Below, piece by piece: positions 35,901 to 53,148 of a DNA stretch of 53,202 nt. Positions within the stretch are counted from its first letter, which is position 1, and every line of letters starts with the position of its first letter. This DNA is from a virus: positions 1 through 53,202 of IMG/VR virus record IMGVR_UViG_3300033273_000307, one strand, 5' to 3'. Below the pieces are notes generated by a model. The model ran no database searches. It had not been told where the DNA came from and saw only the letters and a program-made list of their open reading frames with translations. Made by a program: the position numbers and the translations under genes.

Positions 35901-38900
35901 ATTGATCCATTTGCTGGTAGGTCTATGCCTATCACAGCAGTTGGTGCAAACACTATTACTGTAAATGCTGGTGCATCTCAATCAAACCAGTATTTCCAAC
36001 CATCTGCGGTAAACTATAATCCTGCTACAGGAGATATGTTATGCCAAATCGGTCAACATGGTCTTGGAGTTGGACGTAGTGTAGTTCTTTCCGATAACTC
36101 ATTTACATTTACTTGTGATCAAGACGGCAACGCAACCCAGCATACCTATCCACGTCCTGGTTCTGACCCATATGCTGGTCAGTCTATTCCTATTACTGAT
36201 GTTGGATATACAGAGCATACTCCTACTGACGCGCCATATAATGCTGCAACAGGAACGGTAACATTTACAGTTGCTAATCATGGATTTACTAGTGGTGACT
36301 ATGTACAGATTCAAGATGGATCTCTTACATACACTTGTGATCTAGATGGAAATACTGCACAGAAGACATATCCACGTGCTGGTTATGACTATCCATCTGG
36401 ACGTTGGATGCCAATTGTAGTTGTTGACGCAAATACATTCACAATCAATGTAGGATCTTCTCCATATACAGGAGCACACACGTTTGTTAGTGCTTCTGCC
36501 AATGCGATCAGAAGACAAGATGGTTGGATTTCTCTCAATGTTGGTAGTGCAGGAACTGCATCTGGTTCTGTTCACACCTTTGTTTCTGCTACTGCTAATG
36601 CAATTAAGTTTGAACCACAATCTGCACATTCGTTTGTTGGTGCAACTGCTAATGCTGTCAAGCATTTACCACAGTCTGCACATACATTTGTCAGATCTGT
36701 ATCCAACGCATTGAGTGTTGGTGGTTCTGAATTCAAGATTTATCTTGGTTTTACAAGTCAAACACATACCTATGTAAGTGGCGGTACGGTTACTTATGGT
36801 GGAAACTCTTACAACATCACAAACTTTGTTTGGGACAACGTAGTCAGTGGTGCTGCAACAGTCACTCTAGCAGCTCCAATTCCTGGAATTGCAGAAGATG
36901 ACACAGTTCAGATCAACAATATTCTACTGGAATGTGATAATGGTCAGAAACTATATCCAAGTTTCAGCATTCCTGTTGATGATGATCAGTGTCGCCAAGA
37001 CGTTGTTCACTTCTTGAATGCTCTATCCAGAGACCTAGAATTTGGATCTAACTTTAACGTAATCGAAGCTGCTAAGAAGTATATTGTTGGTGCTAAGATT
37101 GGATTTGTAGAAAATGAGATCATTCAAACAGTTCGTGCGATTGAGTATGCTAGAGAACTAGCAACATTCGCAATGTGTAACTGGAGAACTGGTAACAGAA
37201 CTGCAAGTGATCCTGTCTATACACCTGTATATTCTACTCTACCAAGATATTTCGATGATACTGTTATCACAACAACAGCAGGAACACCTGCTTGTGCTAA
37301 CGTAGCATCTGCTATTGATACTTTAGCATATCTTTGGGTAGATGTTATTTCAAATAATGCTTCTGGAACATATCTAGATGCAGCATATTTGATTGCTCGT
37401 AACAAGGATCTCATTGCTGATCAGGCATATCTCGATACTCTTGTTCAGTATCCAGCACTAGGACTTAATAATGTAGATGAAAGAAAGTGCAGAAGAGATA
37501 TTGGATTCATCCTCAAGGGTCTTGTAAGAGACTTGTGCTTAGGCGGTAACTCTGGAACTGTAACTAATGCAGAGTTTTACTACACTGGAGCACAACTAAC
37601 AGGTATTGATTCTGCATACTTACCACAAACTCTGTATGCATATCAGCAAGTAAGAGATTACGCTATTGCTGCTATGCGTAATTGGACTGATGGTAATGTA
37701 ATTAGCACCACACCAACAAATGCTACATACAACTCAACAACTGGCGATCTAACCCTAACAATTCCAAGACCAGCAACAGATCTTGGAGGATTGGCAGTTG
37801 CTGGAAATGATAGGGTTTCTTTTGCTGAAGGAGCACTAACTTTCAACTGCGCTTCAAATGGTGGTGGAGACTTAGCAAGCCCAGGGAAATTAGATGCAAA
37901 TTATGGAAAAAGTTTCCCAATTATCTCTGTTGCAAACCTAAGTCTAACTGTAACTGAAATTACATGCAATGTTGGTGATGCTGGATCTGCTGCTGGTGTA
38001 GCACATACATTTGTATCTGCTCTGGCAAATGGAACAAGATTAATTTATTCTCCAGTAGAAACAACTTCAGATATTCCAAAATTTGAAGATTGGAATATCG
38101 GTCTATATCCAACAACACCTCTTTGTGCAAACGTTGCGTCTACAATCACAACACTATTCGCTTTACTAGAAGATATTCTAGACGGTACAGTTGCTCCTGG
38201 TGCTACGACTAAGAATACAGGAACTCTGTATGATACTTCACAAATTCTAACCTATCCTGACAGTTATGTCTACGATCAGGATGGTGTCAGAATGGCAGTT
38301 CGTGGTGACTTTGATGACTTCCCAATCATTGAGGCATCACCATACACCCAGAACTCTTCTGTTATCTCCTTCCTAGGTGGTGGCGGTGCTCTGATTGACG
38401 GTTCTAAGGTCAAGCAACCTAACTGTCCTTTCCCTGGTCTAGAACTAGATGGTTCTGCATCTTTCCCCAATCAGGGTAAGTCGATGGTTGCTTCGGCATT
38501 TACGATCGTCTCCTTTGGTGGTACAGGTTATAAGGTTATCAACGATGGTTACACCCAGTTGGTTTCGGTCTTCGTTATCTTCTGTTCTGATGGTGTCCTT
38601 TGTGAGTCTGGTGGTTACGCATCTATCACCAACTCTGCTACCAACTTCGGACAGTATGCACTAAGAGGTACAGGATATAGAAAAGATCCATATGTCTTTG
38701 ACATTGCAACAATCACCAATGTATCCGCAACCCCAACTGGCAGAACTATCCTGACAGTTAGTGGACTTGGAAGAGAACCTCTAGAGCACTATGTCGTCAA
38801 GATTGACGGTGTTACAAACACCAACCCTGAAATTGAATACTTTGTCGATGCTGTTGGTTCGGTAACTGTTGGTCCTCCTTTCTCTGCACAGTTGACCATC

Positions 38901-41900
38901 GATGATGGAACTGGTCAGGCAATGGATCTAACCAGTATTGCTACTGGAAACCCAGTCTCTGTAGGAACACTAACTGGTTCTACAATTAATCTCCATAGAC
39001 CATCTATCGTCAACTCTTCTTCCCACACTTGGGAATTTGCGGGTTCTGGTACTAACTATCTTGCTCTACCTGAAAACGGCGGTACTAAGGTTGAAGCATA
39101 TGAACAAGTCTCTGAGAACTACGGTCGTGTTTATGTTTCTGGTACTGACGAACTTGGTGACTTCAAGGTTGGTACATTTGCTCAGATTGAGAACAGAACT
39201 GGTAACATTACCTTCACAGGTACTGTTACGATCTCTGAAGTTGAGTTCCTCAAACTGAAAGGTGGCGACGTTGTTGTTACTGGTTTCGATGCATCTAACA
39301 CTCTTGGTGGTGCTAACGCAACTGACTCTAAACTACCTACTCAGAAGGCAGTTAGAGACTACATCACCAACAACCTTGGTCCATACATCAACAAACCATA
39401 CTCCACAAACGCTGTTCCTAGAGCACTGGTTGAACTAACCGACTCTGGTAAGATCTCGATTGACCAGATCCCAGCACTCAGACCATTCAGTGTCTACACT
39501 GTTCCCGATCAAAATGCAAGACTTTCTATCGAAGGCGCACTTGCTGGTGACATCGCAATCCAACAGGATACATCCACATCGTTCATTCTGAACAATGATA
39601 ACTCCAGTCTGTTCGTTGCATTCCCCGTAGATCCCACACTGCAGTTTACTATCAATGATATCTTCACTGGTAGTATCTCTGGCGGTAGAATTCAGGCAAC
39701 CGAATACAGAACTGGTGTAGTCTACCAGATTAATATCACTGATGGTGGTTCTGGATACACTTCCCCACCAACGGTTACAATCTCTGGCGGTAACCCTGGA
39801 CTAGGTGCAATTCCTGCACAAGCAGAATGTACCATTGCTAACGGTGAGGTTGTTACCGTTACAATTATTGAGTTCCAGAGTCTCAAGGGCGGTAAAGGAT
39901 ATACAACTCAACCAACTGTTACGTTTGCTGCTCCAACTGGTGCAGGTACACAAGCACAAGGTGATGCATTCATTGAAAGCAGACTGTACGGTAACATTGT
40001 TAATAACGTCAAGATCACTGATACTGACAATATTGACTCTAGTGATGTTCCTCCAGTTGCTGTCAACATTAGCAGAGTTGTCAACACTTCTTCTAGCAAC
40101 TCTAACAACTGGGTATCTCTATCCTCCAACCAGATCGCTGCTTCTGATATCACCTCTGGTGTTCTTGAGACAGATAGATTAGCAACTGGTGGTGCTGCAA
40201 ACTCCTTCACATTCCTACGTGGCGACCAGAACTTCGCACTTGCGGTTCAGTCAGTCAAGGGTTCTGAGACAAGATACTTTGCTCAACTTTACTCTAACGT
40301 AAATGCTGGATCCAGTTCTCTAATCTTTACAACCAACTCGGATGTATTGATTGGACATGAAGTTCTAAACAATGTTTCTGGTATCCAATCCAATACCAAT
40401 ATTACAGGTGTTATTACTGCTGCTGGTCTGACGACAGTTTCGATTAACAACCCAGTAACCGCTACAATCCCTGCAGGAACCATCATCGAGTTTGAGCGTG
40501 GTGGATCTCCAATGATCTTCGAGTCCAGCTACACTCAAGGTGGATTCATCGATGACGTTATCATTTCTGCTGGTGGTAGTGGATTCACCAATGGTCAATA
40601 CTTTGACGTTGGACTGACTGGTGGAACTGGTACTGGACTACGTTGTAACATGATTGTTGCAAACAATACAGTCACTGAGATCATTGTTACTGACGGTGGT
40701 ACTGGATACAACGCTGACTTCTCAATCACAAATCCACCACCAGAAATTGGTGGAGGATCTGGTCTGGTTCTAGAAGCAAAACTAAGTACAGTCAACAGAC
40801 AGTATGCAAACGTTTCTATTGACGTTCAGAGAGTTACAGATCTAACGATCTCCTCTGACTTGTATGGAACGATTGGTGTTTCAAGATTTAAGAAGTCTCA
40901 GTTCACCATCGGTCAATCTGGAAATGGTTCTGTCGAACTAAAAGTCGGTCCTGACTCTGGTCTTGACGCTGACCTTCTCGACGGCGCACAAGGTTCCTTC
41001 TACCTAAACTCTAGCAACCAGAACGCTGGTACGCTACCAACAGATAGACTGTCTGGTACTTACAACATTGACATCTCTGGTTCTTCTGGTAACACACTCA
41101 GAGTTCTAACTGGTACTAACAACCCAACATCCAACCCAACTCCAAACTTCTTCCAAGAAGGTATTGTTGCTAACACTGTAAACAACTCTTCTAACCAGTT
41201 GCTAGACGGTGGTAACAAGCACCTCGTCATGACTATCAGACAGTTTGGTAGCAACTTCGACGCATCTGGTGGTGGTGTAAGACAACTTGCATTTACCGAC
41301 AATGACAACATGTGGTTGCGTGGATCTGGAACTGGTGTTACCAGCTTCGGTTCCTGGGCAAAGATCTGGTCCTCTCTAAATGACGGTGTTGGATCTGGTC
41401 TAAACGCAGACAGACTAGATGATAAGCAAGGAACATGGTATCAGAATGCTCTGAACATTAATGATGGAACACTCTCTGATAATAGACTTCCAAGATTCAT
41501 TAGTCCAACAGCATTCAGAGATACTGTTACCCTCAAGTCTTTCAATGGTGATCCTAAGTATCGAATCTATGTAAGTGGCAGAACTCTAACAACTTCTCCA
41601 TTCACCCCTGGTAACAACGTCAACCTGTACAACGCAAATGGTCAAGGTACAGGTCAGATCGCAATTGACAATATCATCGTCAATGATGATCTCGCTGACA
41701 ACTTCAATGACTACACCATCATCATTGGTAGACTAACAACTGGTAACTTCATTGGTGCAATCAACATTGGTAGCACTGCGATCAACGTACCATTCCAAGA
41801 ATTCACTATTGAGGATGACAACACAGTAGAAGTTGCTAAGTGGGAAAGTGACGGCGGCACAGCAAACCTAAGACTAGGTAGAAAGGACGGAGTTCAATCT

Positions 41901-43316
41901 TCTCCTGGTCTATACTTCAACTCCTCTGCTCAGGCAGCAAACTACAACTCAGCAATTATCGCTTCTGGTGGTAATGCATCTGACGGATCTGGTACTCTCA
42001 ACGTACAGGTTATCAATGCTGATGGTTTCTCTGTCAATGGTAGTAAGGTTTGGAACGAAGGTAATATCGAATTCCAATCTGCAAACATTGGAAACACCGC
42101 AGTCAAGCGTGATGCTTCTGGTAACTTCTCTGCTGGAACGATTACGGCATCTATCACTGGTGCTGCTTCACTGAACGTTCTAAAGGCAGGCGATACCATG
42201 ACTGGTTCGCTGACTTTAACTGGTGCTGCATCTAACTTCCAAGTACAAGGTACAGGTACATTCCTGAGCACCGTTTCGATCACAAATGATCTTGCAGTTG
42301 ATACTGACACATTATTCGTTGATGTATCCACCGATCGTGTTGGTATCAATGCTGGTGCGAACCCAGCTGCTCCTCTAGAGGTTAGAGGTGACGGCGGTAT
42401 CATGGTCCGCAGTATTACCACGTCTCCTTCTACTGGTGCAAGAATTAGATTTAGTGATGCATCTGGAAGCAGTTATGATCAGACAGGTACTATCAGATAT
42501 AACCATGCTGACAGTCAATCACCTAATAGTAATTATGGTGAAAGTTTCACTATGGAAGGTACAGAGACAGAACTGGCATTCCGTGTTGTTGGTGACATTA
42601 TTGCATCCAGATATATTGGTATTGGTATCAACCGTCAACCAAATTACACTCTCGAAGTTGCTGGTGATGCTTTGTTCACCACTGGCGTTACTATTGATAG
42701 TGCTAATGATAACTCTGGCGCTCCACTATACTTCCTAGGTTCCTCTTCTGCAAGAAACTTCAGAGTTGGTAACCAAATTGGATTCAATGATTGTTTTGAA
42801 ATTACCGCATCTACCAACAATGGCGGTACTTCCTGGAATGGAACACCTGCTCTCTTGATTGATGGTTCTGAGAACGCAATTGCAGTCAACACTTCTGCAT
42901 TCTCTGGTGTTGATCCTTCCAACAACCAGACCAGAAACTACAAGTTGAATGTTCAGGGAGACATGAACATCAACGGTCAGTTGTTCCAGAACAACTCTGA
43001 ATTCGTTACTTCCAGATGGACCGAAGCATCCAACCAAGCAGATATCTATAGACTGTCTAAAGTTGGTATTAATAGAGTTGATCCTACATATGAATTACAC
43101 ATTTCTGGTGATACTAACATTGAAAACGGTGCTCTGTATGCTAACGGTGTCAGACAATGGATTGACTCCTACGGTATCTTCAAGTCCAACAGTAATACTG
43201 TTGCTGAAAATATCACAATCCCCGCAAATATCAACTGTGTAAGTGCAGGACCTATCACTATTGCAAACGGTTACACTGTAACTATAAATAGTGGTGGTAA
43301 CTGGGCTATTGTATAA
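32991..43316 (+). CDS. Giant tail fibre: beta-helix, nested repeats and LDG-type fibre shaft, 3441 aa
   Basis: A 3441-residue protein. The N-terminus (1-60) is a mount-like segment, followed by two GSGYT repeat units (65-135). Residues about 294-395 look like the start of a right-handed beta-helix (GSDENDGRSAVSPVRTIKKA, then GGDYVEDNPI). The helix seems to resume near 1760-1900 after a long insertion. Inside lie helical modules (782-817 plus 1329-1404, and 1461-1567), four 74-87-residue tandem repeats (830-1160) and 18-residue HTFVSATANA repeats (1162-1244). Residues 2240-2620 have more GSGYT units. After about 2650 come LDGAQGSFYL/LDDKQGTWY fibre repeats (AD-x-LDG type). The C-terminus ends in GPITIANGYTVTINSGGNW, a closing motif common in phage fibres. 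No intramolecular chaperone (S74) is seen. Probably the main host-contacting fibre. Confidence 0.8.
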   Translation: MSFNINSDKETFRGSKPAFIGDNELTIRGGVGADEKEILRTQLDADTSLPRVGINRTGQRVNTVTVTDGGSGYTVVPSVTIDPPSTPGGVQALASAFIFNGRVINVAVNNPGSGYTTAPNAVITGGGGGAGATATVQLDTVDFELDINGAIRTSTSIISDTARILNLDIDNFITPDLQLRGPNFKTYVNNTGTPWADNVIIQKDSYRYFGANVYQALNTGQTGSDAPEHVDGVELNGEVNFKHIGFRVIDEEAFGYNTTGEAGVFPRSITPLLGDRSDKIATTEYVLNLATNDVGGRIYVSQQIGSDENDGRSAVSPVRTIKKAAQLAWATPGVKETLIVSGGDYVEDNPISLPPDCSVVGDNLRLVIIRPANPKKHIFKFGDKNYVIGVTYRDQVDAFGDSVATWDFAMVFDDKQRVIVDYDTNGDFGTNFPIGHQIFGPDQFRLAFQDNTGLSQLQTGLEIVGINSGARAEVIDVSFTTTIGASAYLTGTIDVTLKSGSFIQGESFRYLISGSDGGSLLQSSSEIYASNTLKFSSNPESVSFTGGVYVAIDDVPNTFFTGTQFYEIIEVNDNEDVENSIPATEWYVSFSPILGAPTFDTIGPCNFTINDANIIEEEIDTTDLTSIRAEGEVVSVDENITATLPIVKIDFSLQGDPSIAQDGVHSAQFGNAEDLGGVIFYTSELVGRTNFHDFKEGQEIEISGLPTAGPDLSALNGKQRIYKVIEDADGRCRRFVIPKKFPAIADANFQPGSSAVVKSYSKSITLSLLNSPNKFPLSSPVDRRYQDAVTFIRNNRDFIADEVVGKINDQFKKEYYSVYDIGGAVDSSYTPTNVTYDPATGDAVFTVASHGLSVGDGIKIADESITFTCTMDGNKTEHALPESDQYASGKALPITAADTNTFTVNVGASGADQQWTPSGAAYDPATGNLVLTIGTHTLSVGEGIVIDDNSLSFTCDMDGNQSVKTYPRPGIDPFAGRSMPITAVGANTITVNAGASQSNQYFQPSAVNYNPATGDMLCQIGQHGLGVGRSVVLSDNSFTFTCDQDGNATQHTYPRPGSDPYAGQSIPITDVGYTEHTPTDAPYNAATGTVTFTVANHGFTSGDYVQIQDGSLTYTCDLDGNTAQKTYPRAGYDYPSGRWMPIVVVDANTFTINVGSSPYTGAHTFVSASANAIRRQDGWISLNVGSAGTASGSVHTFVSATANAIKFEPQSAHSFVGATANAVKHLPQSAHTFVRSVSNALSVGGSEFKIYLGFTSQTHTYVSGGTVTYGGNSYNITNFVWDNVVSGAATVTLAAPIPGIAEDDTVQINNILLECDNGQKLYPSFSIPVDDDQCRQDVVHFLNALSRDLEFGSNFNVIEAAKKYIVGAKIGFVENEIIQTVRAIEYARELATFAMCNWRTGNRTASDPVYTPVYSTLPRYFDDTVITTTAGTPACANVASAIDTLAYLWVDVISNNASGTYLDAAYLIARNKDLIADQAYLDTLVQYPALGLNNVDERKCRRDIGFILKGLVRDLCLGGNSGTVTNAEFYYTGAQLTGIDSAYLPQTLYAYQQVRDYAIAAMRNWTDGNVISTTPTNATYNSTTGDLTLTIPRPATDLGGLAVAGNDRVSFAEGALTFNCASNGGGDLASPGKLDANYGKSFPIISVANLSLTVTEITCNVGDAGSAAGVAHTFVSALANGTRLIYSPVETTSDIPKFEDWNIGLYPTTPLCANVASTITTLFALLEDILDGTVAPGATTKNTGTLYDTSQILTYPDSYVYDQDGVRMAVRGDFDDFPIIEASPYTQNSSVISFLGGGGALIDGSKVKQPNCPFPGLELDGSASFPNQGKSMVASAFTIVSFGGTGYKVINDGYTQLVSVFVIFCSDGVLCESGGYASITNSATNFGQYALRGTGYRKDPYVFDIATITNVSATPTGRTILTVSGLGREPLEHYVVKIDGVTNTNPEIEYFVDAVGSVTVGPPFSAQLTIDDGTGQAMDLTSIATGNPVSVGTLTGSTINLHRPSIVNSSSHTWEFAGSGTNYLALPENGGTKVEAYEQVSENYGRVYVSGTDELGDFKVGTFAQIENRTGNITFTGTVTISEVEFLKLKGGDVVVTGFDASNTLGGANATDSKLPTQKAVRDYITNNLGPYINKPYSTNAVPRALVELTDSGKISIDQIPALRPFSVYTVPDQNARLSIEGALAGDIAIQQDTSTSFILNNDNSSLFVAFPVDPTLQFTINDIFTGSISGGRIQATEYRTGVVYQINITDGGSGYTSPPTVTISGGNPGLGAIPAQAECTIANGEVVTVTIIEFQSLKGGKGYTTQPTVTFAAPTGAGTQAQGDAFIESRLYGNIVNNVKITDTDNIDSSDVPPVAVNISRVVNTSSSNSNNWVSLSSNQIAASDITSGVLETDRLATGGAANSFTFLRGDQNFALAVQSVKGSETRYFAQLYSNVNAGSSSLIFTTNSDVLIGHEVLNNVSGIQSNTNITGVITAAGLTTVSINNPVTATIPAGTIIEFERGGSPMIFESSYTQGGFIDDVIISAGGSGFTNGQYFDVGLTGGTGTGLRCNMIVANNTVTEIIVTDGGTGYNADFSITNPPPEIGGGSGLVLEAKLSTVNRQYANVSIDVQRVTDLTISSDLYGTIGVSRFKKSQFTIGQSGNGSVELKVGPDSGLDADLLDGAQGSFYLNSSNQNAGTLPTDRLSGTYNIDISGSSGNTLRVLTGTNNPTSNPTPNFFQEGIVANTVNNSSNQLLDGGNKHLVMTIRQFGSNFDASGGGVRQLAFTDNDNMWLRGSGTGVTSFGSWAKIWSSLNDGVGSGLNADRLDDKQGTWYQNALNINDGTLSDNRLPRFISPTAFRDTVTLKSFNGDPKYRIYVSGRTLTTSPFTPGNNVNLYNANGQGTGQIAIDNIIVNDDLADNFNDYTIIIGRLTTGNFIGAINIGSTAINVPFQEFTIEDDNTVEVAKWESDGGTANLRLGRKDGVQSSPGLYFNSSAQAANYNSAIIASGGNASDGSGTLNVQVINADGFSVNGSKVWNEGNIEFQSANIGNTAVKRDASGNFSAGTITASITGAASLNVLKAGDTMTGSLTLTGAASNFQVQGTGTFLSTVSITNDLAVDTDTLFVDVSTDRVGINAGANPAAPLEVRGDGGIMVRSITTSPSTGARIRFSDASGSSYDQTGTIRYNHADSQSPNSNYGESFTMEGTETELAFRVVGDIIASRYIGIGINRQPNYTLEVAGDALFTTGVTIDSANDNSGAPLYFLGSSSARNFRVGNQIGFNDCFEITASTNNGGTSWNGTPALLIDGSENAIAVNTSAFSGVDPSNNQTRNYKLNVQGDMNINGQLFQNNSEFVTSRWTEASNQADIYRLSKVGINRVDPTYELHISGDTNIENGALYANGVRQWIDSYGIFKSNSNTVAENITIPANINCVSAGPITIANGYTVTINSGGNWAIV
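35479..36470 (+). repeat. Four in-frame tandem repeats of 222-261 bp
   Basis: Copies begin near 35481, 35738, 36000 and 36222. Shared pattern: YDPATGDxxxTxxxHxLxVGD, then FTCxxDGNxxxxxYPRxGxDPxAGxxxPIT and an N-T-F-T-V-N-x-G end. A divergent fifth copy lies near 37713-38035. The array encodes part of the 3441-aa fibre. Confidence 0.8.
36474..36722 (+). repeat. Short in-frame repeats encoding HTFVSATANA units
   Basis: Four units start near 36474, 36570, 36624 and 36678. The last three are spaced at exactly 54 bases (18 codons: A-H-x-F-V-x-x-x-x-N-A). They directly follow the larger tandem array. Confidence 0.7.
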
Positions 43317-43321
43317 AGATT

Positions 43322-44077
43322 ATGGCTGGTATTCTAAAGGTTGACCAGATCCAAAACACCGCTGGTGTTAATATTATGGATCTGCAGAATGATGAAATCA
43401 GAGTATGGAATGGCAGTGGATACTCTCCTATGACCACTCCTGGTGCTTTGATTGGTATTCAAGTGTACACATCTCAAGATGGAACTTGGAATAGCAAATC
43501 AACAGGTGGCGGATCTGGAACATGGACAAAACCTGCAGGTTGTACCCACGTTCTAGTGTACGTAACTGGAGGTGGTGGCGGTGCAAGAGTAAACGATAAT
43601 AGTTATCGTGGTGCTGGTGGTGGTGGCGGTGCCACTGCAATTAAATATATCGATGTTTCTAACGTTGGTAGCGTCTCATACCAATATGGTGGTGGTGGCG
43701 GATACGCCAGAAATGGTGGTCGTGGGGGATCTGGAGGAACTAGTTCTTTTGGTTCTTACTGCACTGCGGGTGGAGGACAAGGCGGTCAAACGGATGTTCC
43801 CCACCAAGGTGGTCCTGGCGGAGATGCTAGTGGTGGAGACATAAACATCCCTGGTGGCGGTGGAGAAATGGCACACGGTGCCGATAGAGAAGGTGGCGGT
43901 GGATCAAGTTACTGGCATAAAGCTGGATCTTCTCACCACTACTACAACAACCAAGAAGAAGTTACTCACGGTCAGTGGGGATCTGGTGGTGCATATGGAT
44001 ACTATTCACAGAATGGTTTTGCACACAACAATGGCAACGGCGGTGCTGGTTGCGTTATCGTATGGGAGTATACTTGA
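43322..44077 (+). CDS. Glycine-rich adhesin-like tail protein, 251 aa
   Basis: A 251-residue protein. The N-terminus (MAGILKVDQIQN...) is a motif shared by many marine phage tail proteins. Residues about 65-75 (GTWTKPAGC) begin a domain in which runs of glycine (GGGGG) alternate with short polar loops up to the C-terminal VIVWEY strand. Such Gly-tract layouts resemble the tail-tip adhesins of T2/S16-type phages (gp38), where glycine strands pack as polyglycine-II and the loops between them contact the receptor. That is an analogy, not homology I can prove. The gene lies six bases after the giant fibre and 1 base before an assembly-type gene, the order expected for fibre, adhesin and chaperone. 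Loops are rich in His, Tyr and Asn. Confidence 0.7.
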   Translation: MAGILKVDQIQNTAGVNIMDLQNDEIRVWNGSGYSPMTTPGALIGIQVYTSQDGTWNSKSTGGGSGTWTKPAGCTHVLVYVTGGGGGARVNDNSYRGAGGGGGATAIKYIDVSNVGSVSYQYGGGGGYARNGGRGGSGGTSSFGSYCTAGGGQGGQTDVPHQGGPGGDASGGDINIPGGGGEMAHGADREGGGGSSYWHKAGSSHHYYNNQEEVTHGQWGSGGAYGYYSQNGFAHNNGNGGAGCVIVWEYT

Positions 44078-44078
44078 T

Positions 44079-44435
44079 ATGTATCAATCATTAGTAAATA
44101 AAAACACAGGTCGCATCATCGAAATGAAGAAAGGCGGCACTGATGTAAGATTTGAAGTTCATGAAGGTTTCTTTTGGGTCGAAGGTCCATATGAACTAGA
44201 ACCAAAAACTACAGAAGCAGACTACTTCTATAATTTTCAAGATAGAAGTATTGACAGAGTGCAATACAAAGAACCTTCATATGATCTTAGTAGAAGAATG
44301 GAATATCCAGAACTATCAGATCAATTAGATATGTTGTTTCATGATATGGAATCTGGTCTTATACCAGGAAAAGATACTTCCACTTGGTATGTTGCTGTGA
44401 AATCTGTCAAAGAAAATCATCCCAAACCAGAATAG
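44079..44435 (+). CDS. XkdW-like tail-fibre assembly protein, 118 aa
   Basis: A 118-residue protein. The C-terminal part has the XkdW/fibre-assembly pattern YPELSDQLDMLFHDMESG followed by W and a VKENHPKP tail. The N-terminal half (residues 1-65) contains EVHEGFFWVEGPYEL, typical of small fibre-associated proteins with a W-V pair. ATG 44079 is chosen because it directly follows the upstream stop (44075-44077), whereas the longer frame would overlap 225 bases of the adhesin gene. Members of this family are found next to tail-fibre genes and are thought to help fold or attach fibres. It is followed by a CTAAATA motif and another fibre gene. Confidence 0.65.
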   Translation: MYQSLVNKNTGRIIEMKKGGTDVRFEVHEGFFWVEGPYELEPKTTEADYFYNFQDRSIDRVQYKEPSYDLSRRMEYPELSDQLDMLFHDMESGLIPGKDTSTWYVAVKSVKENHPKPE

Positions 44436-44437
44436 TC

Positions 44438-44445
44438 ACTAAATA
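44438..44445 (+). promoter_or_regulatory. Late promoter motif ACTAAATA before the 427-aa fibre
   Basis: ACTAAATA directly follows the preceding stop. A GGATAGGA ribosome-binding region (44451-44458) and ATG 44467 follow. No hairpin is seen here. Confidence 0.45.
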
Positions 44446-44466
44446 AATCAGGATAGGAATACACCC

Positions 44467-45750
44467 ATGTCTCAATTAACTGTTGGAACAGTTGTTACAG
44501 GTAATGCTAGTTTGACCACACAGGGTCTCAAGCTACCATCATTTACTAACAGCAATAGACCAGCTTCTCCAAATGTCGGTCAGATTATTTACAATACTGA
44601 CGAGAATAAAGCACAGATCTGGAATGGATCTGATTGGGATGAAGTTGGTGGTGGTATTCCCGAACCTGCAAATGAAACCAGAGGTGCTTATCTAGTATCT
44701 GATGGTGAGAACGGTGTGTTCTGGGCATATCCTGGACAAACCGTTGCATCTGCTCCCCTTACTGGATTTAGATACAGAAGTTTGATAACCCACGGTTATC
44801 TGGTGGCGGGGTACAAGGGATCTAACCCTTGGAGAACAGTCAATAAGACTTGGCACGCAAATGACATCACGTTCTATTGCGGCGAGCAGTTGACTAGAGC
44901 ATTGACCTATGCTGACTGTACCTGGAGTGATTACTTCGGATATGGTCATGGTTGCGTCAACTCGTTTACGGGATCTTCCAGTCATACAGACTCAATTAAC
45001 CTGCACACAGGTATGAGGAGAATGTTTGGTACTACAGGAGATAACCCTGGCGGCGGTACTTACTCACCTTCGAACTATGGTTATGAAGGTGATGACCCTA
45101 GAGGCGTCATGGGATACACCGTTGTTGGTGGTTGGAACATGCCTGTCAACAGAGACAGAAACGCATGTGCTACTGCACAAAAACAACAGTTTGGTTACAA
45201 CCTAGGTGGCGGTAATGATGCTGTTGGTAAACTACACTTCCCTTCTGAGATTATGTATCAGGTAGGCAACTCGCCTTCTGGTTCTGACCACACCGCATCT
45301 TGTGGTGATGAGGATAGATCATGGGCATCCTTCCGTGGTAGCAGACATTATGTCAATCATTCCAACGATAGTTGGGCTGGATGGTCTTCTAACGCCGCTC
45401 CTGACGGAGTTTGTAAGTTCCTTCCTTCCAAGTACGGTCATTTCTATGCTGGTACTGGAAACAATGTTACCTCACCATGGACTAAATACAGCGGTTCTTC
45501 TGGAGCTGGTCTCAAGAACGGAACCAAGGTCCGTGCTTATGGTGAAGAGAACTTCCAAATGGGTCAAGACCATGGTTACATGATGGGTCAGTATGATGGT
45601 CAGCAGAATAATCACACAACTAAGTGGGATTACACTACTGATGTTGAGACCAACCTTGGTGCTGCTGCAAGACCCAAGGGTCATTATGGTCAATCTTCTG
45701 GCGGTTGCTGTTCTGCTGCCGCTGCTGTCACTGTAAATCAGGCACAATAA
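44467..45750 (+). CDS. Tail-fibre-like protein, 427 aa
   Basis: A 427-residue protein. Residues 21-58 have the fibre-mount pattern LKLPSFTNSNRPASPNVGQI, then YNTDE...WNGSDW, also present in modified form in the 1830-aa fibre. After residue 100 the protein is Gly, Tyr, Trp, Asn and His rich with several Cys (in GEQL, ADCTW, GHGC, NACA, TASCG), suggesting a globular receptor-binding head, perhaps metal- or disulfide-stabilised. The C-terminus is SGGCCSAAAA. No catalytic motif was recognised. It begins behind a late motif and overlaps the next gene by one base. It may be a second, shorter fibre with its own specificity. Confidence 0.68.
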   Translation: MSQLTVGTVVTGNASLTTQGLKLPSFTNSNRPASPNVGQIIYNTDENKAQIWNGSDWDEVGGGIPEPANETRGAYLVSDGENGVFWAYPGQTVASAPLTGFRYRSLITHGYLVAGYKGSNPWRTVNKTWHANDITFYCGEQLTRALTYADCTWSDYFGYGHGCVNSFTGSSSHTDSINLHTGMRRMFGTTGDNPGGGTYSPSNYGYEGDDPRGVMGYTVVGGWNMPVNRDRNACATAQKQQFGYNLGGGNDAVGKLHFPSEIMYQVGNSPSGSDHTASCGDEDRSWASFRGSRHYVNHSNDSWAGWSSNAAPDGVCKFLPSKYGHFYAGTGNNVTSPWTKYSGSSGAGLKNGTKVRAYGEENFQMGQDHGYMMGQYDGQQNNHTTKWDYTTDVETNLGAAARPKGHYGQSSGGCCSAAAAVTVNQAQ

Positions 45751-47391: not shown

Positions 47392-47599
47392 ATTACTTCC
47401 CATCATCCATTACTCAATCTATCATAGATTTGAGTTGGAAGATAAGAACAAAGATCTTGATCGCAACAAGCTAAGGCAACTTGCGGAAGAGAACAAGTAT
47501 ATTCTGGAAACTAACCCAGAAGCTGAACACATTTATATGGAGAAAGTGATTGTAGAGTATGGAAAGATTCTCGATCCCGCTGAATACAAAGCTTCCTGA
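47369..47599 (+). CDS. Small helical hypothetical protein, 76 aa
   Basis: A 76-residue protein, with an N-terminal LLPIIHYSIYHRFELEDKN segment followed by a charged helix. No family was recognised. ATG 47369 is chosen because the earlier in-frame ATG lies 63 bases further inside the upstream gene. Its 3' end overlaps the U32/methyltransferase gene by 41 bases, the largest overlap of the run, which suggests tight translational coupling. Confidence 0.5.
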   Translation: MASQRHLELLPIIHYSIYHRFELEDKNKDLDRNKLRQLAEENKYILETNPEAEHIYMEKVIVEYGKILDPAEYKAS

Positions 47600-49241
47600 A
47601 GATTTTGTACTAAACACCTTTATTCCTTTTCTCAAGGAACATAAAGAATACATCTACGATATTTACTTCACCTGTCGTATGCCGCCCTTTGTGCAGGATG
47701 CGATGGGTGATGTTATTGATGGGGATATGAGAGATACTACTCTCAATGCCTTATTTGTTTCTCGGGAGACAGGTATTCCCCTGTCTGCTACATTTAATAA
47801 TATCCAAGTTCCTCCCACTCAAGAGAACCTGGATATTTTTATTGAGAATTTTAGACCCTTGTATGAGGCAGGAATTCGTATCATCACCATACCACATACA
47901 TCATGGGTGTTGACTGGACAGTTGCAGAAGGAATTTCCCGAACTGTTTATCAAGAATACTATTCTTAGGGAAGTTACTAGACCTAATGAAATTGTAAACC
48001 TAGCAAAAGCAGGGTTTCATTATGTCAACCTAGATAGAGATCTTATGCGTGACAGAGATACTCTACTAAGAATCAAAGAAGCAAAAGAATACTGTGCTGA
48101 GATTGGCAAACCAGTCAAGATTTCATTACTTGCTAACGAGTGGTGCTGGGGCGGTTGTCCTATTATGCCAGAACATTATCACTACAACATGGTGAGAGAA
48201 AAAGATGACCCTCAGTATTTTAATACTAGTTTGAGTAGGGTATCTTGTTCTACCTGGGACGAGAGAGATCCTGCTGCGTCATTGAAAGCAGCAACAATTC
48301 CGCCATGGAAGAAAGATTGGGAAGAGTTTCTTGATCTAGGTATTGATGTATTCAAGATGCATGGCAGAGAAAATGCAATGCGTCTCATGGAAAGCATGGA
48401 CATCATCAAACGATGGGCATCAGATGAGGAGTTGCTACACCCACAGTTCAATGACTACATTGAAGATGTAACTCTCGAAGAGAAACCAATTGATATCTGG
48501 AGAGAGAAGATCAAGACCTGTGGTTTTGATTGTTGGAAGTGCAACTACTGCGACTCGGTTGTGCAGTCCAGAATGAAGAGGAGCGATAGGCATTTTGATG
48601 AGGACATCGAATTGGTTCTGTCATCTATCGAGAAAGCAGCAAGAGGAGATAGTGAGTTTGTAGAAGAAGGATTTAGTTACGAAGGATTGTCTTCTAATAC
48701 AGTAAGACATTTCTTGAATAATCTACTATCTAAACCCGACGCTATCTACATGGAATTGGGTGTACATGCTGGCAGTACATTCTTTGCTGCTACTATGAAC
48801 AGAGATGTAGAAGCGTTTGCTGTTGATGATTACTCTGAGAAAGAGATCTCTCCATTTAGAGATGACATTGAAATGGAATCATATGATGATCCAAAGAAAG
48901 TTTTCTTCCGTGGATTGAGAGAGAAACAATACTTTTGTCCGAATACTATTCAGGATCTGACTCCCAGACACGTACATAAAAAACCTAATGTTATTTTCTA
49001 TGATGCTGATCACGATCCACAAGCTCAATATGATAACCTCACATTCCTGATTCCAGCATTTGCAGACAAGTTTATCCTTGTTGTTGACGATGCAAACTTT
49101 ATGGGTGTTGTGCAAGCAGCAGAGTTCTTTGTAAAAGAGAACAACTTAAATCTTTTGTTTGAAAGAAAGATTCTAACCAAGATTCCAGAAGATCCTAATG
49201 GATGGTGGAATGGTATACATGTTATGGTAATTTCGAAATGA
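47559..49241 (+). CDS. U32-peptidase/hydroxylase-like domain fused to SAM methyltransferase-like domain, 560 aa
   Basis: A 560-residue protein with two parts. Residues about 1-340 recall the U32 collagenase-like family: a TIM-barrel-like order of strands and helices, the NLDRDLMRDRDTLLRI segment (about 152-167), and Cys clusters C196-x3-C200 (CWGGCP, followed by H), C230 and C321-x3-C325-x2-C328-x2-C331, fit for one or two Fe-S clusters. Bacterial U32 relatives (UbiU/UbiV, RlhA, TrhP) carry out oxygen-independent hydroxylation of quinones or RNA. Residues about 395-555 look like a class I SAM methyltransferase (Methyltransf_24-like): motif ELGVHAGST (about 398-406), an acidic DD end of strand 2, and YDADHDPQ (about 485-492). 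The first start overlaps the previous gene. It directly precedes five oxygenase-like genes. The U32 assignment is moderate; the methyltransferase half is more secure. Confidence 0.62.
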   Translation: MERFSIPLNTKLPEDFVLNTFIPFLKEHKEYIYDIYFTCRMPPFVQDAMGDVIDGDMRDTTLNALFVSRETGIPLSATFNNIQVPPTQENLDIFIENFRPLYEAGIRIITIPHTSWVLTGQLQKEFPELFIKNTILREVTRPNEIVNLAKAGFHYVNLDRDLMRDRDTLLRIKEAKEYCAEIGKPVKISLLANEWCWGGCPIMPEHYHYNMVREKDDPQYFNTSLSRVSCSTWDERDPAASLKAATIPPWKKDWEEFLDLGIDVFKMHGRENAMRLMESMDIIKRWASDEELLHPQFNDYIEDVTLEEKPIDIWREKIKTCGFDCWKCNYCDSVVQSRMKRSDRHFDEDIELVLSSIEKAARGDSEFVEEGFSYEGLSSNTVRHFLNNLLSKPDAIYMELGVHAGSTFFAATMNRDVEAFAVDDYSEKEISPFRDDIEMESYDDPKKVFFRGLREKQYFCPNTIQDLTPRHVHKKPNVIFYDADHDPQAQYDNLTFLIPAFADKFILVVDDANFMGVVQAAEFFVKENNLNLLFERKILTKIPEDPNGWWNGIHVMVISK

Positions 49242-49822
49242 ACTCTTTTAAATATCAATACTTCAAAATCAAATTAGAAGAAGATTTTTTTAATATGCTG
49301 ATGCAAGCAATCAATGAATCTGGGCATATGCAAAAAGAAGGATTGGCTATTGCAGAAGAAAATCTGATGGTTGCAAAAGTTGGTGGTGGTCAAATAACAA
49401 AGGATAGGCAATGTAAAGTATCTTTTATTGACAATCCAAGAGTGTTTGAGTTATTAGATGGATTGGTAGAGTTTGCTAACTCAAAAATGCTTTGGAATAT
49501 AAAATTAGACTTCATCGAACCTCTTCAATATACTGTTTATGGTCCCACAGATTATTATGATTGGCATATTGATGAGGGAGATTGGACTCCAAATAGGAGA
49601 GAGGGTAACAGAATTAGAAAAATGAGTTTCAGTATTGTTTTGCCAGGTGAGTTTGAAGGTGGTGAATTTTCAATTGATGCAGCAGGAGAAAGAAAAACCA
49701 TGGACTTGAAAGAAAGAGAAGCTATTTTCTTTGGAGCAGATACACCACATACTGTTCTTCCTGTTACTAGTGGTACTAGAACATCTCTGGTAGGATGGGT
49801 ACAAGGACCAGCTTGGCAATGA
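49238..49822 (+). CDS. 2OG-Fe(II) oxygenase 1 (P4H/PKHD-like), 194 aa
   Basis: A 194-residue protein. The iron triad is visible: H110-I-D112 in DWHIDEG and distal H171 in DTPHTVLPV. A basic residue, R181, in SGTRTS is positioned for 2-oxoglutarate binding. The layout LSF-x-I-V-L-PG-x-F-E-GGEF and the end VTSGTRTSLVGWVQGP are typical of PKHD-type hydroxylases (PiuC/P4Hc-like). Such enzymes use O2, Fe(II) and 2-oxoglutarate to hydroxylate a protein or small molecule. The ATG overlaps the stop of the fusion gene (ATGA). Substrate unknown. Confidence 0.85.
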   Translation: MNSFKYQYFKIKLEEDFFNMLMQAINESGHMQKEGLAIAEENLMVAKVGGGQITKDRQCKVSFIDNPRVFELLDGLVEFANSKMLWNIKLDFIEPLQYTVYGPTDYYDWHIDEGDWTPNRREGNRIRKMSFSIVLPGEFEGGEFSIDAAGERKTMDLKEREAIFFGADTPHTVLPVTSGTRTSLVGWVQGPAWQ

Positions 49823-50382
49823 AATTTATTAGAGAGTACACACTATCGGACCTTTCTATCTGTGATAGACTTATAGATCTTTTTCATGATGCAGATAAAA
49901 AGGATCTGACATACGCTGGACGTGTAGGGGGTGGTAGTGTCATTCCAGAAATTAAAAAAAGCAAAGACTTTTTTATTGAAGATGCAGGTCCTTTAGGATC
50001 CGCAATGGATTACAAATTTGATAAGTATAGAGCGGAGTTGGATAGTTTTGTTGACGACTATCTAAACTCTCTTCAGATTATGAATCAAGAATTTGTAATG
50101 GAACGTTTGCCACAGATTCAGTATTACAAACCTGGAGATGGATTCTACACTTGGCATGTTGATGGTTCTGGTAAAGATGGATGTGATAGAGCATTCGTGT
50201 ATATCACATATCTAAATGATGTTCCAGATGGTGGAACAGAATTTTTCTATCAAGACTACACAGTCAAGGCAGAAAAAGGTAAAACTGTAATCTTCCCCGC
50301 CGCATTAACTCATAAGCATAGAGGACAGATATCAGAGACTCAAGAAAAATATATTATGACTGGTTGGATTTGGTGGGTATGA
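49819..50382 (+). CDS. 2OG-Fe(II) oxygenase 2 (P4H-like), 187 aa
   Basis: A 187-residue protein. H113-V-D115 in TWHVDGS is the HxD pair. The distal His is H165 or H167 in THKHRG. GGTEFFYQDY and the end with TGWIWW match prolyl-4-hydroxylase-type oxygenases. ATG 49819 overlaps the previous TGA (ATGA). By eye it resembles oxygenase 1 in order of motifs but not in sequence outside them, so it is not a recent copy. Proteins of this type commonly hydroxylate prolines or other side chains of peptides. Target unknown. Confidence 0.85.
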   Translation: MKFIREYTLSDLSICDRLIDLFHDADKKDLTYAGRVGGGSVIPEIKKSKDFFIEDAGPLGSAMDYKFDKYRAELDSFVDDYLNSLQIMNQEFVMERLPQIQYYKPGDGFYTWHVDGSGKDGCDRAFVYITYLNDVPDGGTEFFYQDYTVKAEKGKTVIFPAALTHKHRGQISETQEKYIMTGWIWWV

Positions 50383-50960
50383 ATAAACCGATTGTTATTA
50401 ACAACGTTCTATCAAAATCAGAGCGACTTACTTTGTGGGACTATTTTGATCGCAAATCACCTTCTATGAATAGTCTTGCCACGTGGACGTACAACAATGC
50501 GTCTTATGGTCAGGGAGATCCTGTATCGTGGCAACATCCTCTTAGGACAGATTTGATCTTTACTAAGTGTGCTACTACAGTTAGATTGAAAATGATGAAG
50601 CACTTGCGTAGAGATATCAAACTATGCAAGATCCATGCTAATGGTCAGACTGCAGGTCAGAATACCCTCTTCCATAAAGACTGGGAAGAACATGGAGTAT
50701 GGACGTTCATCTATTTCAATCAACCATACTGGGATGTAGAATGGGGAGGAGAGTTTGTATGTCAAACTCCTGATGATGAATATCATTTCACTCCATATGT
50801 CCCTAACAGTGGTGTATTCATTCCATCTAACTGGTTACACAAAGGTCAACCTCCCAATAGTTTGATTGGCAATGAACTTAGGACTACTATAGCATTCTCA
50901 TTTTGTGATCCTGATATCCATGATAAAATTATTTCACAAACGAAAAGAAAATGGTATTAG
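50379..50960 (+). CDS. 2OG-Fe(II) oxygenase 3 (phage type), 193 aa
   Basis: A 193-residue protein. H99-K-D101 in LFHKDWEEH is the HxD pair, and H154 in NWLHKGQPP is the distal ligand. LRTTIAFSF supplies the likely 2-oxoglutarate-binding Arg. GGEFVC and FIPSNWLH match oxygenases of the cyanophage/2OG-Fe(II)_Oxy type. The N-terminal 90 residues differ from the other four copies and may bind the substrate. It overlaps the previous gene by four bases (ATGA). Substrate unknown. Confidence 0.8.
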   Translation: MNKPIVINNVLSKSERLTLWDYFDRKSPSMNSLATWTYNNASYGQGDPVSWQHPLRTDLIFTKCATTVRLKMMKHLRRDIKLCKIHANGQTAGQNTLFHKDWEEHGVWTFIYFNQPYWDVEWGGEFVCQTPDDEYHFTPYVPNSGVFIPSNWLHKGQPPNSLIGNELRTTIAFSFCDPDIHDKIISQTKRKWY

Positions 50961-50970
50961 GAATCAAACA

Positions 50971-51576
50971 ATGATTTATCAACAAAGTAATCTCTCATTT
51001 GTATCTGAGAAAATACCCGACAACTTATACAGAGATCTTCTCGCTTATACAAGAAAGCGTAGAGGAGATGAGACATGGAACTACAATATAAGATTAGCTG
51101 GTGCTCTAGAGCAACAGTCAAGTTTGTCTGAGTGGAAGTACGAGTGTCCTGGATTTGAAGACTATGTTGTTGATTTATCTAGAGATCTGTGGAATGAAGT
51201 ATATGAAACTTGTCCATGGGATTTTCAAGAGACAAGGGACATATCTCCTTTTATCAAACTAAGAAACCTTTGGGTAAATTACCAAAGACAGAATGAATAC
51301 AACCCAGTCCATACACACTCTGGTATTGTGAGTTTTGTTATTTTTGTCGATATACCATATGGAGCAGAAGAGAGAACTACCCATAGAAGTAATGGTGCGT
51401 TTCAATTAGAAGCAGAAGTATTGCCAGTTGACAAATCTTGGAATGGTGTTATACTCATGTTTCCGTCTACCACAAAACATGCAGTCTATCCATACAAATC
51501 TACTACTGATGAGAGAGTGACTGTATCTGGAAATCTTACTTGGAATGTGGAGGGACCAGATGAAGAACATTATTAA
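50971..51576 (+). CDS. 2OG-Fe(II) oxygenase-like protein 4 (HxH variant), 201 aa
   Basis: A 201-residue protein resembling the putative 2OG-Fe(II) oxygenase family of PF13759 type: N-P-V-H114-T-H116-SG, then SFVIFVDIPY, and distal H170 in TTKHAVYPY, followed by ERVTVSGNL, where the Arg would hold 2-oxoglutarate. The second ligand of the usual HxD pair is His here, so activity as a standard oxygenase is uncertain. ATG 50971 has TAGGA upstream (10 bases) and avoids a long overlap. It is separated from oxygenase 3 by ten bases. Gene 5 overlaps its end by 17. Confidence 0.7.
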   Translation: MIYQQSNLSFVSEKIPDNLYRDLLAYTRKRRGDETWNYNIRLAGALEQQSSLSEWKYECPGFEDYVVDLSRDLWNEVYETCPWDFQETRDISPFIKLRNLWVNYQRQNEYNPVHTHSGIVSFVIFVDIPYGAEERTTHRSNGAFQLEAEVLPVDKSWNGVILMFPSTTKHAVYPYKSTTDERVTVSGNLTWNVEGPDEEHY

Positions 51577-52102
51577 AGATAATTGCATCAATCCCAACTA
51601 CCAAAATCTCATTGAAGAAACTATGAGATTTGATACAGATTTTAGGTGGATCTATCATGATAATCTATCTGAAGATGGAGAGAGTCAACTACCAGGATTC
51701 TCTCATATGTTTTTGTTAGATGGTAAATCTACTACATCATACACTGGGTTGTTCATGCCTCTTTTATTTGAAGCGTGTTATAATACAGGTATCAGTGTTT
51801 CGAAAGTCATCCGTGGTAGATGTTTTTTGCAGACACCTGGCATTAGACATAAAGAATATGATTCTATGCATGTAGATCTGGCAGATCCGCATATGGTTTG
51901 TCTATATTATGCCAATGATAGTGACGGTGATACGTACTTCAGTGAAAGGATGTACGGAGATCCCATTGCCGAATATCCCATAAATAGCACTGTCACACCA
52001 AAAAAAGGACGTTGTGTATTTTTTGATGGTTTGCGTTTTCATTCAAGCAGTAAACCAATACACAACTCTCGATTTGTTATCAACTTTAATTTCATTCCTT
52101 GA
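51560..52102 (+). CDS. 2OG-Fe(II) oxygenase-like protein 5, 180 aa
   Basis: A 180-residue protein. H104-V-D106 in SMHVDL, distal H161 in RFHSSSKP and R171 in NSRFVINFNF form a complete HxD...H...R set. The beta-strands between them (VCLYYAN, DGDTYFSE, KGRCVFFDG) fit a double-stranded beta-helix. GGAGGG-like ribosome-binding sequence (51549-51554) lies five bases before ATG 51560. It overlaps oxygenase 4 by 17 bases. Sequence outside the motifs is unlike the other four. Last enzyme of the cassette; substrate unknown. Confidence 0.75.
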   Translation: MKNIIKDNCINPNYQNLIEETMRFDTDFRWIYHDNLSEDGESQLPGFSHMFLLDGKSTTSYTGLFMPLLFEACYNTGISVSKVIRGRCFLQTPGIRHKEYDSMHVDLADPHMVCLYYANDSDGDTYFSERMYGDPIAEYPINSTVTPKKGRCVFFDGLRFHSSSKPIHNSRFVINFNFIP

Positions 52103-52108
52103 ATAATT

Positions 52109-52297
52109 ATGGACCCAGCAGCACTAAAGAAAAACTTTGAGGAGCAAATTGCTACTACTATAAAGCAAATTGGAGAACTCGAAGAAAACTTGCGTAAAGC
52201 AAAAGAATATAAAATCAAACTAGAAGGAGGTCTTGAGACTCTCGGACTTCTAGAGGGAGAACCAGAAGCACCAGCAGAAGAAACTCCCGCTGAATAA
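52109..52297 (+). CDS. Small coiled-coil protein, 62 aa
   Basis: A 62-residue protein. Residues 5-45 are a heptad helix with Lys, Glu, Leu and Ile. The C-terminal 15 residues are acidic and rich in Pro, Ala and Glu. It follows oxygenase 5 by six bases and precedes the terminator and gp13. Small coiled-coil genes of this kind are common beside cyanophage gp13; the function is unknown. Confidence 0.65.
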   Translation: MDPAALKKNFEEQIATTIKQIGELEENLRKAKEYKIKLEGGLETLGLLEGEPEAPAEETPAE

Positions 52298-52347: not shown

Positions 52348-53148
52348 ATGGCATCTCCAAATTCAAGAGCTGAACTCATCACATATTGTAAGAGGCAGCT
52401 TGGTGAGCCTGTCCTACAAGTAAACATTGACGACGAACAGGTAAACAACGTTATTGATGACACGTATCAGTTCTTCCAAGAAAACTGCTACAACGGTATG
52501 GAGCGTGCATATCTATTCCACGAAATCACTGCTGACGATAAGACAAGGTTTGCTGCTAGTGTAACAACTACGACTGGTACAACTGATTGGAAAGAAACAA
52601 CAAACTACATCGACATCCCGTCTCATGTAGTTGGTATTACCAGAGTCTTTGGTCTTGTCAGCAACTCAATCCGTTCTAATCTTTTTGGTGTTGAGTATCA
52701 GTTGTTCTTGAATGATCTCTATGCATTCGGATCACTTGATATCCTCAACTATTATATGAATAAGCAGTATCTAGAGACACTGGATATGATCCTTAATAAT
52801 GGATCGTTCCAGCAATTTAGATACACAATGCGTCGTGATCGTCTCTACATGGATCTAGACAAAGACTTCCTCAACGAAGGATCTAACATCTTGATTGAGT
52901 GTCATCGTCTCATCGATCCCGCAGATGCTACAGAGATGAACAATGATATGTTTGTCAAGAGATATGCTACTGCTCTCATGAAGAAGCAGTGGGGTCAGAA
53001 CTTGATTAAGTATAACAACGTTCAGTTACCTGGAGGTGTTACTCTCAACGGTAGAGAGATCTACACAGACGCACTAGCAGAAATTGAGAAAATCGAAAGC
53101 GAAGTTCTCAGCAAGTATGCAATCCCACCAATGGATATGATCGGATAA
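52348..53148 (+). CDS. 13: Neck (head-completion) protein gp13
   Basis: A 266-residue protein matching T4 gp13 (309 aa). The N-terminus MASPNSRAELITYCKRQLGEP and the DDEQVNNVIDDTYQFFQEN stretch (about residues 28-46) are the family signature. The centre has ITRVFGL and NDLYAFGSLD (about 95-130). The C-terminus is helical. gp13 forms the neck with gp14 after DNA packaging and allows tail attachment. ATG 52348 is preferred over an earlier in-frame ATG because the known N-terminus starts MASPNSR. The ATG is 11 bases past the end of the terminator stem, and AAGAAGGG in the stem is the only ribosome-binding-like sequence. Confidence 0.92.
   Translation: MASPNSRAELITYCKRQLGEPVLQVNIDDEQVNNVIDDTYQFFQENCYNGMERAYLFHEITADDKTRFAASVTTTTGTTDWKETTNYIDIPSHVVGITRVFGLVSNSIRSNLFGVEYQLFLNDLYAFGSLDILNYYMNKQYLETLDMILNNGSFQQFRYTMRRDRLYMDLDKDFLNEGSNILIECHRLIDPADATEMNNDMFVKRYATALMKKQWGQNLIKYNNVQLPGGVTLNGREIYTDALAEIEKIESEVLSKYAIPPMDMIG

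Follow-up and report, generated by a model that had tools for sequence, protein, structure and literature searches.

What use might a T4-like cyanophage make of several small 2-oxoglutarate (2OG)-Fe(II) oxygenases encoded side by side among its virion genes? The question is raised by the viral record IMGVR_UViG_3300033273_000307 from IMG/VR, whose 53,202 bases are referred to here as the window. In the gp13 region, it comes closest to T4-like myoviruses of Synechococcus and Prochlorococcus, with 80-85% DNA identity to Sf-CH1b and S-RSM4. At 49238-52102, five open reading frames (ORFs), named A to E, follow each other on the plus strand, all of them members of the 2OG-Fe(II) oxygenase superfamily, whose fold is the double-stranded beta-helix. 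They would form one coupled unit among the virion genes. The leading guess for their function, weakly supported by their location, is that they hydroxylate virion proteins.

The family assignment was obtained by profile searches, in which the curated Pfam cut-off is 27 bits for both PF13640 and PF13759. A (49238..49822, 194 aa, PiuC/YbiX-like) and B (49819..50382, 187 aa, prolyl-4-hydroxylase-like, also phrog_61) exceeded it for PF13640 with 48.5 bits (E-value 1.8e-12) and 47.7 bits (3.2e-12). D (50971..51576, 201 aa) exceeded it for PF13759 with 43.2 bits (5.3e-11); it resembles TIGR02466 of NCBIfam as well, at 28.1 bits and thus below the cut-off of 62.5 for that family. C (50379..50960, 193 aa) and E (51560..52102, 180 aa), both assigned to phrog_274, are of the PF13640 type and stayed below the cut-off with 22.6 bits (2.2e-4) and 19.6 bits (1.9e-3), respectively. 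PF13640 was matched by 16 of 16 C orthologues and 17 of 17 E orthologues at E-values up to 0.1, the best being 4.4e-5 and 2.9e-5.

All iron ligands were invariant in alignments of 19-23 distinct relatives per gene. The HxD...H triad is found in A (H110-x-D112, H171), B (H113-x-D115, H165/H167), C (H99-x-D101, H154) and E (H104-x-D106, H161). D, a member of PF13759 and not of PF13640, carries HxH (H114-x-H116) together with H170 instead, and this site is invariant in 23 relatives. A basic residue 10-14 positions past the distal His is likewise invariant in all five proteins (R181, K177, R168, R182 and R171 in A to E). In B, the putative 2OG-binding residue is Lys177, while its Arg168 varies among relatives. 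Collagen-type prolyl 4-hydroxylases also have Lys at the 2OG-binding position.

AlphaFold models were made for E, the weakest case by profile, and for D, the odd one, with predicted template modelling scores of 0.73 and 0.82, and were compared with the PDB by Foldseek. The top 50 matches of each model were all 2OG oxygenases or PF13759 structures, which confirmed the double-stranded beta-helix. E matched best to PHD2/EGLN1 and an algal prolyl 4-hydroxylase (5e-7). These enzymes share the fold, the HxD...H motif and the R/K position with E; identity is about 20% or less. D matched best to 3bvc and 2rg4 (7e-8 to about 1e-7), uncharacterised PF13759/TIGR02466 proteins which share its HxH motif region and its fold. 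They were followed by the prolyl 4-hydroxylase of P. putida (1.6e-6), including its complex with EF-Tu (4iw3, 6e-6), and further matches were the collagen prolyl hydroxylase of PBCV-1 (1.5e-5) and the alkaloid oxygenase OkaE.

The median ratio of non-synonymous to synonymous substitution rates lies between 0.10 and 0.26 per gene among the relatives, and the genes are thus under purifying selection. Such conservation across large synonymous distances (dS) places the array beyond chance. Together with the invariant ligands, it indicates that A, B, C and E are catalytic enzymes as far as sequence can tell; D is probably catalytic, too. A recent tandem duplication was ruled out as their origin by cross-family profile scores near zero bits among the five proteins of the window. 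Between families in general, scores departed from near zero in two cases, A2 with B, both of PF13640, and the PF13759 members with one another.

The genes are tightly packed. ATGA overlaps join A to B, B to C and also A to the ORF directly upstream, named MT (47559..49241, plus strand, 560 aa, phrog_1458). D and E overlap by 17 bases, and a gap of 10 bases lies between C and D. In relatives, the ATGA overlap was found at 22 of 22 A-B and 15 of 15 B-C junctions, and the 17-base overlap of D and E at 18 of 19. The position of the array is fixed as well, with fibre-region and MT genes on one side and gp13 on the other. In the window, a small conserved ORF of 62 aa (52109..52297, plus strand) separates the array from gp13 (52348..53148, plus strand), the neck protein (head-tail adaptor) that marks its right border. 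Much of this had been put forward in an earlier note made from the window's sequence alone, namely five divergent, intact oxygenases in a coupled run, their His and Asp positions, the junctions and an origin other than simple recent duplication, and all of it was borne out, as was the beta-helix in the models of D and E. Its downstream Arg was found in A, C, D and E, but B has the invariant Lys instead.

A search of IMG/VR with A, C, D and E retrieved about 150 loci. Complete arrays, bounded by the MT ORF and by the small ORF or gp13, were present in 69 of them including the window, several loci sharing one contig. After merging at 98.5% DNA identity, 23 distinct arrays were left. Gene order, a comparison proposed in the earlier note, was constant, while the content varied between two and seven oxygenase genes in seven compositions. 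The most frequent were A B C G2 D E (10 of 23) and A B G1 C G2 D E (7 of 23), followed by A B C G2 D (2 of 23). The remaining four were found once each: A B C D E with a gene P1 beyond the small ORF, A B C D, B D only, and A B C D E without an extra member, which is the window itself. G1 belongs to PF13640 with 30.0 bits, above the cut-off, and P1 to PF13759 with 80.8 bits. G2 is weakly related to PF13759 (16.3 bits); it has HxH plus an invariant H and R. In one sub-lineage, speD (S-adenosylmethionine decarboxylase, PF02675, 3.6e-31) is inserted between A and B (L077:8537-8914). A gap of the same kind between A and B was also seen in L080 and L114. Single genes separate close arrays: the window lacks the G2 of its nearest relative, L056, and L112 and L059 differ by G1. 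Single members of the array are thus gained, lost and swapped among relatives.

The loss of G2 has left a trace in the window. A complete G2 separates C from D in 19 of the 23 arrays, among them L056, whose C, D and E are 98%, 96% and 98% identical to those of the window and whose G2 has 171 codons. At the C-D junction, the window retains ATGGTATTAGGAATCAAACA, which is all but one base of G2 codons 1-7. A microhomology of 2 bases fuses it to ATGATTTATC, with which D begins. The fused remnant (50951..50974, plus strand), ATG GTA TTA GGA ATC AAA CAA TGA, reads MVLGIKQ-stop and preserves the ATGA coupling to D. Judged from these sequences, the 10-base gap is the deletion scar of a lost oxygenase G2. 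A second rearrangement appears to have replaced A and most of B. Compared with L056, dS is 1.12 for A and 1.38 for B, versus 0.14-0.29 for F44, X45, X46, MT, C, D, E and gp13. DNA identity in 150-base windows is about 0.49-0.85 across ~49,240-50,330 and 0.91-0.98 outside, and A is only 44-52% identical to the A of every relative. A-B can accordingly be read as lying in a recombined tract (49238..50330, no strand assigned). Scar and tract are each known from one contig only, and assembly chimerism could still underlie them, although this is made less likely by the frames and junctions, which are intact. Another patch of divergence from L056 was observed in a glycine-rich fibre gene (window 43450-44050, 69-81% DNA identity with flanks of 89-97%).

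The single presence or absence of members and the loss of G2 argue for parallel, separately dispensable activities rather than an obligate chain. Our preferred, still tentative reading, to which we give somewhat less than even weight, is that of a plastic, translationally coupled array in which each enzyme would hydroxylate a target of its own with O2 and 2OG, alongside the others and not in an ordered sequence. Protein side chains of the Pro, Lys, Asp or Asn type would be the most likely targets, given how many prolyl hydroxylases are found among the closest solved folds. As the array lies among virion genes, it is plausible that expression is late and that a substrate is part of the virion. 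The best guess would be adjacent virion proteins, encoded by the fibre and adhesin genes at 32991-45750, with host proteins in second place, and turnover of members might then adjust the surface of the virion or the response of the host between strains. A bolder version, in which strain-specific sets of two to seven oxygenases write a hydroxylation pattern on the phage's own fibres, seems improbable; if it were true, adsorption would change through enzyme swaps instead of fibre sequence. Since related phages differ by single array genes, the locus is a natural experiment in gene turnover, and virion mass spectrometry could in principle link one modification to one gene.

Fibre proteins were examined as possible targets with mixed results. 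The divergence of A tracks that of the fibre-region gene F44 beyond the backbone (partial r 0.38-0.51, p 0.0005-0.010), while gp13 as a control gave a partial r of 0.11 (p 0.27). This co-divergence is a weak lead.

Several observations weigh against the preferred reading. The F44 signal comes from a set of roughly a dozen exploratory tests, and the Gly-rich fibre F43 showed no co-divergence with the oxygenases (r -0.05 to -0.12). No Gly-X-Y run of five or more triplets was found in 11 virion-region proteins of the window. The activity of D is not certain because HxH replaces HxD. Furthermore, a scan of 18 reference phages detected 223 PF13640/PF13759 domains, 4-21 in each, which are spread over the whole genomes. 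Within 12 kb upstream of gp13, 22 of the 223 were counted versus 13.8 expected by length, a mild excess contributed mostly by S-RSM4, HTVC008M, S-SSM7 and S-CAM4, and several phages with a gp13 83-92% identical have zero or one Pfam-detectable oxygenase there. A collagen-like fibre as prolyl-hydroxylase substrate was ruled out by the missing Gly-X-Y tracts, and a divergence shared by F43 and A between the window and L056 failed to generalise. Nothing relevant on prolyl hydroxylation of phage fibres was found in the open-licence literature searched.

Elsewhere in the genomes, such oxygenases neighbour recombination and replication, sugar, halogenase and high-light or photosynthesis genes. With neighbourhoods so varied, location points to no single substrate class. 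Fibre side chains had been named in the earlier note as a possible substrate; the neighbourhood of the array fits them, but the similar genes next to DNA-replication, halogenase and sugar genes and the mixed co-divergence do not favour them.

Comparable oxygenase runs are already in public records. The closest is that of S-RSM4 (SRSM4_132-142, NC_013085), which likewise lies between tail fibre and g13 and holds eight Pfam-detectable 2OG domains, five of them in one run. It differs from the window in its other, divergent members, in the Gly-rich proteins that flank it, in an interspersed Fe-S-like gene and in that no MT-fusion ORF is annotated in the interval. SRSM4_134 (L006, 5441-6142), in the middle of the run, has ferredoxin-like CxxC...CP motifs, which suggest that it may be an Fe-S redox partner. 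In the SAR11 phage HTVC008M, four annotated 2OG oxygenases in a row (gp069-gp072, NC_020484) adjoin gp13 together with a 'ferrochelatase', but on the opposite strand and with other family members. Syn9 has a larger 2OG-type run with short overlaps (gp45-gp54, NC_008296; four successive Pfam domains, more by annotation), which lies away from gp13 and adjoins two tryptophan halogenases. S-SCSM1 (PMC9602691) combines the PF13640 and PF13759 subfamilies at low mutual identity, as the window does, but its oxygenases are mostly scattered, in runs of three at most by our own domain search.

That one cyanophage can carry several 2OG oxygenases was reported in 2010, with control of 2OG/NtcA and DNA repair as proposed roles (PMC3037559). 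Since then, 24 such genes have been described in S-SCSM1 (PMC9602691), ten in S-CREM1 (PMC9964418) and nine in S-SZBM1 (PMC9146016), along with a structural similarity of such phage proteins to EGLN3 (PMC12774648) and the co-location of 2OG oxygenases with 'ferrochelatases' in pelagiphages (PMC9599517). 2OG oxygenases are strongly amplified in marine T4-like phages, and the locus is real, well conserved and of a fairly ordinary kind for them. As to whether the same block had been described with a known substrate, a point of the earlier note, similar runs are deposited for S-RSM4, Syn9 and HTVC008M, while the open-licence literature yielded no paper naming a substrate of such oxygenases or describing gain and loss inside such an array.

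Among the alternatives, action on small molecules or glycans such as nucleotide sugars, lipids or free amino acids, for the surface of phage or host, fares best and is still unlikely. The array would then be part of a sugar- or metabolite-tailoring island. In its favour, the interval between fibre genes and gp13 in S-SSM7 mixes 2OG oxygenases with Nol carbamoyltransferases, a heptose kinase, a phosphoheptose isomerase, a cysteine dioxygenase, a tryptophan halogenase and a sugar epimerase. The oxygenases of S-SCSM1 lie amid epimerases and O-fucosyl/glycosyltransferases, and the halogenases beside the Syn9 run, the speD of L077 and the match of D to OkaE point the same way. However, with the exception of speD, neither the block of the window nor the inspected related arrays showed a sugar or lipid gene, and the nearest solved folds of D and E include peptide and protein hydroxylases.

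It is rather doubtful that the enzymes modify host proteins, e.g. EF-Tu or ribosomal proteins, or drain 2OG to steer NtcA and nitrogen metabolism, their location being incidental. Modulation of 2OG levels by cyanophage 2OG enzymes has been proposed (PMC3037559), oxygenase genes occupy many loci in the 18 phages, and D matches the P. putida enzyme solved with EF-Tu. Five divergent, separately conserved active sites would be unnecessary for a mere drain, and the array is tied in its lineage to the virion-gene region, where late expression would be expected. An ordered pathway, in which all five enzymes hydroxylate one substrate, had been suggested in the earlier note and has become very improbable: overlaps at nearly all junctions and the conserved order would suit it, but there are relatives without A and C, without E, without G1 or without G2, and an obligate chain would not tolerate such gaps or the loss of G2 in the window. 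Least probable of all is that some members are non-enzymatic structural or binding proteins which decorate the virion with a retained beta-helix fold, as the HxH of D and G2, the label 'minor coat protein' on related phage proteins (phrog_1644) and the match of B to phrog_1644 at 0.0037 might hint, for no family shows any variation in its Fe and 2OG ligands, the H and R/K of D and B included.

The MT ORF had been taken for a U32/methyltransferase fusion. No match to Peptidase_U32 (PF01136) was obtained in the window up to an E-value of 10, so the U32 domain was dropped as unsupported, although the ORF does have a Cys-rich pattern; the methyltransferase match at the C-terminus is weak and below threshold (3.9e-4). 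This match and eight invariant Cys (179, 196, 200, 230, 321, 325, 328 and 331) make a metal or iron-sulphur site plausible. Relatives of the ORF occur in 123 cyanophage records. P-HM2 has it as well, with no oxygenase domain detected in the vicinity.

Some database names in and around these arrays look wrong. The PHROG label 'DNA endonuclease V' (phrog_274) on E appears erroneous, and the names 'DNA endonuclease V' and 'DNA endonuclease' were ruled out by oxygenase sequence, ligands and fold. The groups phrog_274, phrog_2297 and phrog_1644 ('DNA endonuclease V', 'DNA endonuclease' and 'minor coat protein'), matched by B, C and E, hold 2OG-Fe(II) oxygenase-like proteins, and RefSeq cyanophage records carry these names. 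Proteins labelled 'ferrochelatase' (phrog_3531) with HxD...H-like motifs lie inside 2OG arrays, at 4235-4870 in L006 (NC_013085), 9603-10145 in L177 (NC_008296) and 10215-10856 in L167 (NC_020484). Oxygenase B of the window also hits phrog_3531, at 4.4e-5, and weak matches to PhyH/2OG were obtained for SRSM4_132. It may be that the phage 'ferrochelatase' label, on which the published partnership of 2OG oxygenases and ferrochelatases in pelagiphages is based, is a misannotation.

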